Assembly (NCBI GenBank): GCA_016935655.1 | Contig: JAFGQM010000029.1 | Location: forward strand, 1-26,677 | Length of the DNA stretch: 26,677 nt | Direction of reading: 5' to 3' | DNA from: Candidatus Altarchaeota archaeon | GTDB lineage: Archaea > Altiarchaeota > Altiarchaeia > JAFGQM01 | Shown here: positions 7,152-12,805 of the stretch, piece by piece | Layout of the letters: each line of letters starts with the position of its first letter | How positions within the stretch are numbered: the first letter of the stretch is position 1 | The notes under the pieces: generated by a model | What the model was told of the DNA's origin: nothing | The model's input: the letters and a program-made list of their open reading frames with translations, nothing else | Databases searched by the model: none | Program-made: the position numbers and the translations under genes

Positions 7152-8249
7152 ATGGCTTCTGACGAATTCTACATGCATAAGGCCCTAGAGCTGGCCGAGA
7201 AAGGGGTTGGGGATACGAGCCCGAACCCTGCTGTCGGGTGCGTTATTGTCAAAGGCGATAAAATCGTCGGGCAGGGCTACCATGAGAAGGCCGGGCTGCC
7301 CCACGCGGAGGTCAACGCGCTTAAGGAGGCCGGGGAAAATGCAAATGGTGCGACCCTGTATGTCACGCTCGAGCCCTGCGCGCACTATGGAAGGACGCCC
7401 CCATGCACGGAGGCTATAAAGCTAGCTGGGGTGAAAAAAGTGGTCGCGGCGGTCATAGACCCGAACCCTCTAGTGTCGGGCAGGGGGGTGGCAGAGCTCG
7501 TAAACTCAGGTATCAAAGTCAAAACCGGGATTCTGGAAGAGGAGGCCAGGAGAATAAACGAATCCTACGCAAAGTTCATAACCACTAAGATGCCTTTTGT
7601 CATCGCAAAAGCCGGGATGAGCATAGACGGCAAGATAGCCACCAGGACGGGGGAGTCCAGGTGGATAACCGGCGAGGAGGCCAGGGAGTACGTTCATGGG
7701 TTAAGGAGCAGAGTAGACGCTATCGTGGTCGGGCTCGGGACAGTGTTGAAGGACGACCCTGAGCTGACTGCAAGGCCTGCCGGCGGGAAGGGGAAGAATC
7801 CGAAAAGGGTAGTGGTCGACACCGAACTCAGGATTTCGAAAAAATCACGGGTCCTGGACAAAGAGGCGGGGACTATAATCGCCACCACGAAAAAGGCCAG
7901 CAAAAGCAGGATAGATGAGTTTGAGGGCATAGGGATCAAGGTCATTGTAGTGGGCGAGAAAGATGGTGGAGTGGACCTCAAAGAGCTCGTGACCGAGCTA
8001 GGCAAGATGGAGGTTACCTCATTGCTGATAGAGGGCGGCGGCGAAGTGCACGCTTCAGCCCTGAAGGCAGGCATAGTGGACAAGGTTTTATTTTTCATAG
8101 CCCCAAAGATTATAGGAGGAAGGGACTCGGTTAATGTAGTTGGCGGCCAGGGTATAGATTCCTTAAAAGACGCAATCAAGATTGCAGACTCTAAGATAAC
8201 CAAGATGGGGGATGACTATCTGTTCGAAGGCTACATAAAAAATGTTTGA
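7152..8249 (+). CDS. ribD: Bifunctional riboflavin deaminase/reductase RibD
   Basis: RibD performs the second and third steps of the bacterial riboflavin route: pyrimidine deamination, then side-chain reduction. The deaminase half has HAEVNAL (His51, Glu53) and EPCAHYGRTPPC (Cys76, Cys85), the zinc site. The reductase half (about 148-365) begins PFVIAKAGMSIDGKIATRTG and includes LLIEGGGEVHAS. The 365-residue length is typical. The open frame extends far upstream on the strand opposite the pterin gene; ATG 7152 is chosen because MASDEFYMHKALELAEKG is the standard RibD start. The two-domain bacterial form is unusual for archaea, which mostly use a separate reductase. Confidence 0.93.
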   Translation: MASDEFYMHKALELAEKGVGDTSPNPAVGCVIVKGDKIVGQGYHEKAGLPHAEVNALKEAGENANGATLYVTLEPCAHYGRTPPCTEAIKLAGVKKVVAAVIDPNPLVSGRGVAELVNSGIKVKTGILEEEARRINESYAKFITTKMPFVIAKAGMSIDGKIATRTGESRWITGEEAREYVHGLRSRVDAIVVGLGTVLKDDPELTARPAGGKGKNPKRVVVDTELRISKKSRVLDKEAGTIIATTKKASKSRIDEFEGIGIKVIVVGEKDGGVDLKELVTELGKMEVTSLLIEGGGEVHASALKAGIVDKVLFFIAPKIIGGRDSVNVVGGQGIDSLKDAIKIADSKITKMGDDYLFEGYIKNV

Positions 8250-9435
8250 CTCGATTGAAGAGGCGATAGGGGACATAAATAAGGGCAAGATGGTGGTTGT
8301 AGTAGACGACGAGGACAGGGAGAACGAGGGCGATCTTGTAATGGCCGCAGAAAAGGTGACCCCAGAGGCGATAAACTTCATGAGCAAACACGGCAGGGGG
8401 CTAGTCTGCCTGCCCATGACCGGGGAACGGCTGGACGAGCTGCACATACATACGATGGTGGCCGACAACACGGACAAGAAAGGAACTGCCTTTACGGTTT
8501 CCATAGATGCGCGCGAGGGGACATCCACAGGAATCTCAGCCCATGACAGGGCGTTGACTATAAAAAAGGCGATAGACCCGAAAGCTACCTCCAAGGATTT
8601 CACCCGGCCAGGCCATGTGTTCCCGCTGAGGGTAAAGGAGCGCGGGGTCCTAAGACGGGCTGGGCATACGGAGGCCGCGGTTGATTTAGCCAGGCTGGCT
8701 GGTCTGTATCCGGCTGGGGTAATATGCGAGATAATGAATGAAGACGGGACAATGGCTAGAGTGCCGGAACTCAGGGAATTCGTGAAAAAGCACAATCTGA
8801 AACTGATTACGATAAAGGACCTGATACACTACAGGCTGAAAAACGAGAAACTTGTTAAGAGGATTAGCGAGGCAAGACTGCCTACTAAATACGGTGAATT
8901 CAAGATTATTGTCTATGAGTCAACGCCGGAACAAAAGACGCATGTGGCGTTGGTCAAAGGGAACATAGCAGACAAAAAGGACGTCCTGGTAAGGGTGCAT
9001 TCAGAATGTCTAACGGGGGATATATTCAAGTCCCTGCGCTGCGACTGCGGTGACCAGCTGGAGCGCGCGCTTGAGCTCATCAGCAAGGAGGGCCAGGGGG
9101 TATTCCTGTATATGAGGCAGGAGGGTAGGGGCATAGGCCTGGAGAACAAGATAAAGGCATATGCCCTTCAGGAAAAAGGGTTGGACACTGTAGAGGCTAA
9201 TGAAGCCTTGGGCTTCAAGGCGGATCTGAGGGATTATGGCATCGGAGCGCAGATACTTGCCGACCTGGGGCTATCCAGCATAAGGTTGCTCACAAACAAC
9301 CCGAAAAAGATCGTGGGACTGGAGGGCTATGGTTTGGGGATTGTTGAACGGGTACCACTGTTCATAAAACCGCGTAAGGAAAACAGGAGATATATAAAGA
9401 CTAAGATAACCAAATTGGGGCACCTGCCAGAATAG
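8242..9435 (+). CDS. ribBA: RibBA: dihydroxybutanone-phosphate synthase and GTP cyclohydrolase II
   Basis: The N-terminal half (about 1-200) makes 3,4-dihydroxy-2-butanone 4-phosphate from ribulose-5-phosphate; it has DDEDRENEGD and TRPGHVFPLR. The C-terminal half (about 207-397) opens the GTP ring; it has the zinc cysteines 256, 267 and 269 in HSECLTGDIFKSLRCDCGD, the MRQEGRGIGL loop and DLRDYGIGAQIL. Both active sites look complete. The start overlaps the ribD stop by 8 bases. Fused RibBA is the bacterial arrangement; archaea usually have separate RibB and a different (type III) GTP cyclohydrolase. Confidence 0.95.
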   Translation: MFDSIEEAIGDINKGKMVVVVDDEDRENEGDLVMAAEKVTPEAINFMSKHGRGLVCLPMTGERLDELHIHTMVADNTDKKGTAFTVSIDAREGTSTGISAHDRALTIKKAIDPKATSKDFTRPGHVFPLRVKERGVLRRAGHTEAAVDLARLAGLYPAGVICEIMNEDGTMARVPELREFVKKHNLKLITIKDLIHYRLKNEKLVKRISEARLPTKYGEFKIIVYESTPEQKTHVALVKGNIADKKDVLVRVHSECLTGDIFKSLRCDCGDQLERALELISKEGQGVFLYMRQEGRGIGLENKIKAYALQEKGLDTVEANEALGFKADLRDYGIGAQILADLGLSSIRLLTNNPKKIVGLEGYGLGIVERVPLFIKPRKENRRYIKTKITKLGHLPE

Positions 9436-9547
9436 TCAACAGCTGTCGGCCTGGAGGCTGGTTACTAAAAATCGGAAAGTCATAGGGTTCGAATAATTAG
9501 GGGGACATTTTTAATCTGTGAGCGTCAAATATTCTGCTAATTCTAAC

Positions 9548-11924: not shown

Positions 11925-11941
11925 ATCAGCTTCTATTCAGA

Positions 11942-12805
11942 ATGAAAAAGGTCTTGGTCTATCTGGATACTGCAAAGCTAGCCAATCCTTTTGATCTACT
12001 GGTCGCCTTGGACAACGGATTCGACCATGTCCTGCCCTACCAGGGTATAACCGCCGAGAACTGCGAGCAGATACTCCAAAATGCCCGTTTTCCCAGGGGC
12101 CCGGAGGGTGCAAAAAGCACTGTTTTTCTTATTGGGGGGGACCTTGAGGAGGCTGAGGGCATCTTCCAAAAGTCCAGGCAGATAATAAGGCCGCCCTTCC
12201 AGTCTTCGGTGATACTGGACCCGAATGGGGCTTGCACCACGGCCTCGGCCCTGGTGGCGAAGACAGAGAAACTGTTGGGCGGGGCAAGGGGAAGGAAGGT
12301 CACGATACTTGCAGGGACCGGGCCGATAGGCTCTATAGCCACGATATTGTTTAGGAACCTGGGTGCGCAGGTGACAATAACGTCTAGGACCAGGGAAAAG
12401 GCAACACAAGCCGCCAAGAAGCTTTCTGATGACATACGGGGGGATGTCACCGGTATGCAGGCGGCCACGCCGGAGGAGAGGATAAAGGCCTGTGAATCTG
12501 CTGATGCCATTGTCTCCACAGGGACTCTCGGTGTACAGCTACTCGACTCAGAATGCCTCAAGAAGATAAAGCCCAAGGTGGTAGTGGACGTAAATGTCGT
12601 GCCACCATACGGGATTGAGGACGTGAAGCCCGAGATGGACGGCGATGACATAAACGGCGGCATAAAGGCGTTAGGGGGACTTGGTATAGGGAAGCTTAAG
12701 AACAAGATTGAGGCAGAGCTTCTGAACAAGGCAACCAAGGACATAAGGTTCTATGATTACAACGACGCCCTGCTGATAGCCAGGGACCTAAACAAGGCCG
12801 GCTAG
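11942..12805 (+). CDS. mtdB: NAD(P)-dependent methylene-H4MPT dehydrogenase (MtdB-like)
   Basis: It would oxidise methylene-H4MPT to methenyl-H4MPT with NAD(P). The 287 residues match the MtdA/MtdB family: ILDPNGACTTASALVAK near residue 100, the Rossmann loop ILAGTGPIGSIATILFRNLGA at about 121-141, SRTREKA after the second strand, and VDVNVVPPYGIEDVKP near 220. It does not resemble the F420-dependent Mtd or Hmd of methanogens. It follows fae-hps by 17 bases, so the Fae product is the obvious substrate. Its 3' end overlaps the convergent metF by 18 bases. NAD versus NADP preference cannot be read from the sequence. Confidence 0.88.
   Translation: MKKVLVYLDTAKLANPFDLLVALDNGFDHVLPYQGITAENCEQILQNARFPRGPEGAKSTVFLIGGDLEEAEGIFQKSRQIIRPPFQSSVILDPNGACTTASALVAKTEKLLGGARGRKVTILAGTGPIGSIATILFRNLGAQVTITSRTREKATQAAKKLSDDIRGDVTGMQAATPEERIKACESADAIVSTGTLGVQLLDSECLKKIKPKVVVDVNVVPPYGIEDVKPEMDGDDINGGIKALGGLGIGKLKNKIEAELLNKATKDIRFYDYNDALLIARDLNKAG

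Follow-up and report, generated by a model that had tools for sequence, protein, structure and literature searches.

Riboflavin operons of the bacterial type comprise ribD, ribBA and ribH. In methanogens, pentoses are reportedly supplied by Fae-Hps and the reverse RuMP pathway, as Goenrich is said to have described in 2005. For archaea without the oxidative pentose pathway, the origin of pentoses and the fate of formaldehyde rest on few direct tests. Reverse RuMP supply of ribulose 5-phosphate (Ru5P) in archaea is described in the accessible part of PMC5241800, which includes an assay of the Fae-HPS of Methanospirillum. The same bifunctional enzyme is predicted from the window, the whole analyzed stretch of 26,677 nucleotides from a Candidatus Altarchaeota archaeon; it would likewise split hexulose 6-phosphate into Ru5P and formaldehyde, the latter being passed onto tetrahydromethanopterin (H4MPT), and Phi was identified in a relative, G033. 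The accessible part of that source has no link to flavin genes, whereas the fae-hps of the window is embedded among riboflavin genes, next to mtdB and metVF. The modified Wood-Ljungdahl pathway of Altiarchaeales, as given in the accessible part of PMC4975002, likewise has an NADP-type methylene-H4MPT dehydrogenase and a MetF-type reductase, but the MtdB of the window clade is distinct and sited beside flavin genes. Compared with the bacterial-type riboflavin operon, RibD and RibBA of the window are also bacterial in type and the genes are complete to riboflavin, whereas the riboflavin synthase RibC is archaeal and one-carbon (C1) and pentose genes are added. The chemistry is already known; no earlier report of a coupling between Fae-Hps and riboflavin genes was seen in the literature consulted, and this coupling may be new. 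A conserved row with fae-hps one base after ribH points to a specific user of the Ru5P and to a transcript that can be tested for.

Genes were called from profile matches judged against curated family cut-offs. The row runs ribD-ribBA-ribC-ribH-fae-hps-mtdB, all on the plus strand. It starts with ribD, encoding a bacterial-type bifunctional deaminase/reductase (7152..8249; TIGR00326, 406 versus 156 bits), followed by ribBA (8242..9435; NF006803, 658 versus 569 bits), whose RibB part consumes Ru5P, ribC for an archaeal riboflavin synthase (9551..10012; TIGR01506, 191 versus 101 bits) and ribH for lumazine synthase (10283..10696; TIGR00114, 143 versus 85 bits). This riboflavin set exceeded its cut-offs and covers the way from GTP and Ru5P to riboflavin, the phosphatase step lying outside the comparison. 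The fae-hps fusion (10698..11924; NF009833, 589 versus 274 bits, residues 10-406) and the gene of an MtdB-like methylene-H4MPT dehydrogenase (11942..12805; PF09176 Mpt_N, 69 versus 27 bits) complete the row. It is bounded by two features absent from the sequence-only reading made earlier of this DNA: a dihydropteroate-synthase-like gene divergent to ribD (5582..7066, minus strand; TIGR00284, 373 versus a cut-off of 257 bits), which is a conserved neighbor, and a convergent metVF pair. Of the latter, metF, from the methylene-tetrahydropterin reductase family (12788..13597, minus strand; PF02219), overlaps mtdB by 18 bases, and the adjoining small subunit gene metV (13594..13755, minus strand, 53 aa; PF12225, 45.5 versus 23 bits) overlaps the start of metF by 4 bases. 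MetVF is a flavoprotein family.

The Fae domain of Fae-Hps spans residues 12-169 and the Hps domain residues 181-391. Alignments to 1y5y, 9lj9 and 3f4w showed that the AHIDL histidine of Fae and the DxKxxD of Hps, which we take to be the catalytic motifs, are kept. With its cut-off passed, the window gene is assigned to the bifunctional Fae-Hps enzymes, and cleavage of hexulose 6-phosphate in the cell is predicted. The mtdB product matched the MtdA-type chains 6tge and 1lu9 with E about 7e-40, its Rossmann-type glycine motif GTGPIG aligned with GTGPVG of 6tge, and all structural matches listed for it were MtdA-type chains (6tge, 1lu9, 6tlk). No MtdB-specific model among the curated family profiles was matched. 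By Mpt_N and the glycine motif the protein is classed as MtdB-like, with a putative preference for NAD(P) and H4MPT over folate (MtdA). Its identity is 33-39% to 19 other strong copies in the phylum and about 52-53% to that of G033.

The ribH stop (10696) and the fae-hps ATG (10698) are separated by 1 base, and the fae-hps stop (11924) and the mtdB ATG (11942) by 17 bases. Further upstream are two gaps that the sequence-only reading does not mention: 115 bases lie between ribBA and ribC and 270 bases between ribC and ribH, the latter gap holding an ORF of 75 aa (10014..10241, plus strand). Because these 270 bases and the small ORF part ribC from ribH, ribH-fae-hps-mtdB may form a transcript of its own, separate from the upstream rib genes. 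The sequence-only reading had proposed one riboflavin operon extended by fae-hps and mtdB; the row order and the 1- and 17-base gaps are borne out, but a single operon is weakened by the 115- and 270-base gaps and the ORF.

The row was compared with G033, a relative from the GTDB phylum of an Altiarchaeales genome. G033 carries the whole row in the same order, with the same flanking dihydropteroate-synthase-like and metF genes, at protein identities of 47-74%: 47% for the dihydropteroate-synthase-like protein (same place and strand), 54% for RibD, 69% for RibBA, 68% for RibC, 74% for RibH, 71% for Fae-Hps and 59% for MetF. The gap between ribH and fae-hps is 1 base in both, and that between fae-hps and mtdB is 17 bases in the window and 1 in G033. 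A metV-like frame was read 5' of metF in G033. The left edge of the block common to both is formed by an ilvE-type aminotransferase gene and that of a 102-aa protein (4409..5585, plus strand), and the genes past both ends of this block differ.

Linkage was also scored by a proxy, i.e. protein matches on contigs of identical size in bases, where size does not equal contig name. In the Fae-Hps clade (tree support 100/98), 21 of 34 database proteins shared an exact contig size with a ribH or mtdB match, compared to 1 of 85 listed rows outside the clade. By equal contig size among the matches listed, ribH accompanied 16/34 clade proteins (1/85 outside) and mtdB also 16/34 (0/85 outside). Among the 22 clade rows with a longest contig of at least 10 kb, five (20-100 kb) had neither ribH nor mtdB among the matches listed. 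The ribH label was scattered on the Fae-Hps tree, whose bootstrap had not settled, with 14 changes versus a shuffle mean of 16.5 (31 of 500 shuffles as low). Four contig sizes (75460, 6941, 10541 and 1580) paired ribH with mtdB, fae-hps being absent among the matches listed; a fifth size, 4030, was dropped, its mtdB match being distant (34%, six contigs). A scan of genome contigs gave 5 loci, all without rib genes. Rib genes were likewise absent beside fae-hps on 16 of 16 other Altiarchaeota contigs, where wider flanks were read (down to 7 kb for some), and at 79 further loci from three groups with flanks of at most 1.5 kb. These 79 include 17 Hps-only loci (L029, L030, L091-L105) and a few with partial fae-hps, and Asgard archaea were represented in the linkage search by L002 only. 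From gene order and the clade counts, the linkage of fae-hps with riboflavin genes is judged real and conserved; the physical coupling that the sequence-only reading had singled out as unusual recurs in G033 and, by equal contig size, in part of the clade.

Presence and absence were tallied in 29 genomes of the phylum, the relative G033 among them, in place of the window's own genome. The separate hexulose-phosphate isomerase Phi was over its cut-off in G033 and 6 other genomes, 7 of 7 tried out of the 29 (controls: 14/14 match, 5 over cut-off). 6PGD was found in 0/29 genomes, G033 included (controls 9/14), and neither transketolase nor transaldolase was found in G033, which is an incomplete genome with 17 tRNA genes; RpiA is present in it. 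Of the 18 genomes that carry Fae-Hps, 3 gave a transketolase match, as did 10 of the 11 that lack it (Fisher p 0.0003, kinship uncorrected), and the two are largely mutually exclusive across the 29 genomes. The pentose supply by reversed Hps that had been proposed from the sequence fits G033, with matches to Phi and RpiA and none to transketolase, transaldolase or 6PGD.

MtdB-type genes occur in 20 of the 29 genomes, 5 of these without Fae-Hps, and the Mch of G033 is divergent (46 bits). At 8 of 20 mtdB loci with flanks of at most 1.5 kb, mtdB and metF lie within ∼1 kb (L033, which is G033, L034, L035, L036, L039, L041, L044 and L045). F420-dependent Mtd (controls 2/14) and CofD (controls 6/14 match, 3 over cut-off) were each found in 0/29 genomes; therefore, NADP and flavin instead of F420 may carry the C1 redox steps, at which the row also hints, and this is a possible reason for keeping flavin synthesis beside C1 genes.

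The gene identities, their order, their conservation and the patterns of presence and absence are established by these comparisons, and they are best explained, with a probability of roughly 0.6, by a conserved flavin, pentose and one-carbon neighborhood in a group of Altiarchaeota-related archaea. Fructose 6-phosphate would be converted to hexulose 6-phosphate by Phi, encoded elsewhere, and the Hps half of Fae-Hps would cleave this to Ru5P and formaldehyde, which the fused Fae half would load onto H4MPT. Ru5P would pass via RibB to lumazine and riboflavin, and via RpiA to nucleotides. Methylene-H4MPT would be a useful C1 product and not waste only, being oxidized by MtdB with NADP or reduced by MetVF. 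The conserved neighborhood suggests that pentose, formaldehyde and flavin tasks are run jointly; we infer the direction of flux, co-regulation and a benefit to flavin synthesis. Quite tentatively, the synthesis of pentoses and of flavin and the loading of C1 units onto H4MPT might even form one regulated module in a clade without F420-dependent Mtd, in which Fae-Hps would give Ru5P (for RibB) and methylene-H4MPT (for MtdB with NADP and the flavin-dependent MetVF) in a fixed ratio. If true, sugar breakage would, through this ratio, pay for flavin plus C1 units reduced by flavin enzymes.

It is possible, at well under even odds, that one-carbon metabolism with its pterin and flavin cofactors, and not pentose supply, keeps the neighborhood together, with the dihydropteroate-synthase-like gene, the riboflavin genes, mtdB and metVF as core and fae-hps as a variable insert bringing in C1 units. 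The proximity of mtdB and metF, the absence of F420-dependent Mtd and CofD in the 29 genomes and the four contig sizes with ribH and mtdB without listed fae-hps, of which 1580 bases is too short for all three genes, would agree with this. In Hydrothermarchaeota, too, the accessible part of PMC6775978 interprets the fused enzyme as supplying methylene-H4MPT to the Wood-Ljungdahl pathway. However, fae-hps lies between ribH (1 base) and mtdB (1-17 bases) in both lineages with readable DNA, and 16 of the 34 clade proteins go with ribH by equal contig size, which is not contig name.

The strict form of the sequence-only reading is improbable; it would have an operon devoted to flavin, with Fae-Hps as the source of its Ru5P and MtdB as the means of removing the by-product. 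Row order, spacing and conservation are in its favor, as are the pentose genes not found in the incomplete G033, but Ru5P would also feed ribose 5-phosphate via RpiA and general pentose demand, and two larger gaps interrupt the rib row. To describe the role as disposing of formaldehyde on behalf of flavin synthesis is too narrow, because MtdB occurs without Fae-Hps in 5 of its 20 genomes and the adjoining MetVF gives a reductive exit; ribH and mtdB also share four contig sizes without listed fae-hps. Of that interpretation, the conserved linkage, Phi, the absence of 6PGD and the transketolase pattern are supported, and the dedication to flavin is not. A chance neighborhood, or an inherited order without functional meaning, is very improbable. 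The linkage was seen in one clade only, several contigs of which lack it, but it exceeds chance because order, the identical 1-base gap and the flanks are kept at 47-74% identity while other genes lie beyond both ends.

For ribC, a GTG at 9518 is a candidate earlier start. The 75-aa ORF appeared hydrophobic by eye, has no match in G033 and carries PF15993 as its sole Pfam label, without evident meaning here. A possible TATA box, ATTTTAATT (10245..10253, plus strand), was read by eye ∼30 bases 5' of ribH, and the same nonamer was also read by eye ∼25 bases 5' of ribH in G033. RbkR is a flavin regulator. A scan of the row for intergenic inverted repeats yielded one weak pair, located 5' of ribC.

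The genes ribD (7152-8249), ribBA (8242-9435), ribC (9551-10012), ribH (10283-10696), fae-hps (10698-11924) and mtdB (11942-12805) follow each other on the + strand of the window, and the gene calls and spacings of the sequence-only reading, with 1 base between ribH and fae-hps and 17 between fae-hps and mtdB, were borne out. The 270-base gap between ribC and ribH contains an ORF of 75 amino acids (10014-10241), hydrophobic by eye and with no counterpart in G033, a relative's genome carrying the whole gene row; it is a possible candidate for a flavin-related membrane part. The nonamer ATTTTAATT was noticed by eye ~30 bases upstream of ribH in the window and ~25 bases upstream in G033. 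Its position is that of a putative archaeal TATA box, and a ribH-fae-hps-mtdB transcript could start there. To the left, the row is bordered by a dihydropteroate-synthase-like gene (TIGR00284) oriented away from it, and to the right by metF, convergent with mtdB, the two genes sharing 18 bases. The ORF call of metF begins too early, the likely start being 13597, and its start is overlapped by an unlisted metV gene (53 amino acids, 13594-13755, PF12225); a metV-like frame could also be read in G033.

G033 was the closest genome found and belongs to the GTDB phylum of the Candidatus Altiarchaeales genome G004; identity to the window was 71% for Fae-Hps and 76% for GyrB, the latter over the part inside the window. 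When the gene order around ribH and fae-hps was compared with relatives, the linkage was found to be kept in G033 (contig C43, locus L031), where ilvE, a small protein, the dihydropteroate-synthase-like gene, ribD, ribBA, ribC, ribH, fae-hps, mtdB and metVF are arranged as in the window. Protein identities along the row were 47-74% (33% for the small protein), and beyond both ends of this block the genes differ. In G033, gaps of 1 base precede and follow fae-hps.

For metagenome Fae-Hps only protein records were available, and exact contig sizes, matched across three protein searches, were therefore compared in place of DNA. The ribH and Fae-Hps searches comprised the best 120 matches each, with only the longest contig per cluster, and a shared long contig does not equal adjacency. 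The source contig of P0028 has 16034 bases, as has C43, and was taken as the same sequence. The comparison covered 35 Fae-Hps rows (68-83% identity); P0036, which lay outside the clade in the tree and had no contig-size match, was dropped from the clade counts. Among the matches listed, 16/34 clade Fae-Hps shared a contig size with ribH, 16/34 with mtdB, 11/34 with both and 21/34 with either. Three of the 16 ribH-matched contigs were below 10 kb (8144, 6714 and 4481), and among the 22 clade rows whose longest contig reached at least 10 kb, 17 matched ribH or mtdB and 5 neither, again among the matches listed. For the 85 other Fae-Hps rows listed, a match was obtained with ribH in 1/85 (2319 bases; probably a coincidence, since the sources differ) and with mtdB in 0/85.

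A Fae-Hps tree was built from 77 rows: the window sequence, 32 loci, and 44 database proteins out of the 119 listed once the window's own are set aside. In it, the window and 35 others formed one clade (support 100/98, the bootstrap not yet settled), separate from the Fae-Hps of other Altiarchaeota. The ribH label required 14 changes on this tree, against a mean of 16.5 in shuffles (31/500 as low), which indicates that it marks the clade, yet is patchy within it. No rib, mtdB or metF relative was found within 1.5 kb or less of 79 further fae-hps/hps loci, 17 of them Hps-only: 19 from the G004 phylum, 30 from the phylum of a Hydrothermarchaeota record, where the search covered 23 genomes, and 30, the best from a search of 256 genomes, from the class of a Bathyarchaeota record. 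Nor did wider flanks contain one in 16 of the 17 other G004-phylum genomes with fae-hps; these contigs carried a Phi-like (6-phospho-3-hexuloisomerase) gene on 4 and ilvE on 6. At loci L005 (3882-5744), L096, L097 and L099 (G005, G050, G052; phylum of the Hydrothermarchaeota record), a second, separate hps lies directly 3' of fae-hps.

The gene content fits the proposed pentose supply. Phi exceeded the cut-off in 7/7 phylum genomes tried, G033 included; weaker matches occurred in 14/14 control genomes, 5/14 passing the cut-off. 6PGD of the oxidative pentose route was found in 0/29 phylum genomes (controls 9/14). Transketolase_N was present in 13/29 phylum genomes (controls 13/14), but in only 3/18 with strong Fae-Hps (G018, G022 and G028, the G018 match being weaker) compared to 10/11 without (Fisher p 0.0003, kinship uncorrected). 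E. coli talB and tktA gave no match in G033 at E up to 1, a weak absence since this genome is incomplete (17 tRNA genes); relatives of rpiA, glyA and serA were found in the same search. These findings agree with two papers. According to one, 89.1% of Altiarchaeota have annotated HxlA and HxlB, and part of DPANN, including Altiarchaeota, has annotated transketolase and transaldolase (PMC8407392); in the other, ribulose 5-phosphate arises via reverse RuMP, Fae-HPS having been assayed in Methanospirillum (PMC5241800).

Hps would run in reverse, yielding ribulose 5-phosphate for RibB and RpiA and formaldehyde, which Fae would load onto H4MPT for use by MtdB or MetVF; flux direction, regulation and any benefit of the gene row are inferred. 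MtdB matches (E <1e-30) were present in 20/29 phylum genomes, 5 of these without Fae-Hps. With metF close to mtdB in 8/20 loci, and Mch in 19/29 and Ftr in 21/29 genomes, MtdB fits the Altiarchaeales pathway outlined in PMC4975002 better than formaldehyde disposal alone. MtdB of the window clade shares 33-39% identity with other phylum copies and, judging by this, may have a separate history. G033 contains Ftr and a divergent Mch-like protein (46 bits; L135, 4673-5503), which adjoins a gene judged by sequence alone to be 6-pyruvoyl-tetrahydropterin-synthase-like. F420-dependent Mtd (controls 2/14) and CofD (controls 6/14) were each found in 0/29 phylum genomes, which does not prove absence of F420, since PMC4975002 lists an 'F420 dehydrogenase' in the core genome.

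That the gene row is dedicated to flavin supply is countered by four contig sizes on which ribH and mtdB pair without a listed fae-hps, among the matches listed. Flavin is moreover a minor consumer of pentose, which counts against such a role. The same fusion in Hydrothermarchaeota is also interpreted, in PMC6775978, as a methylene-H4MPT source. No report linking fae-hps with riboflavin genes was found in the literature, subscription journals lying mostly outside the search.

Elsewhere in the window, the RNA ligase RtcB (520-3483) carries an intein at residues ~115-606, and the G033 RtcB is intein-free. At 16383-19223, an operon of the cbiMNQO type for uptake of cobalt or nickel lies in divergent orientation to a gene for a NikR-type regulator; Pfam matches identify the regulator, CbiM and the ATPase, and cbiN and cbiQ were named from position and appearance.
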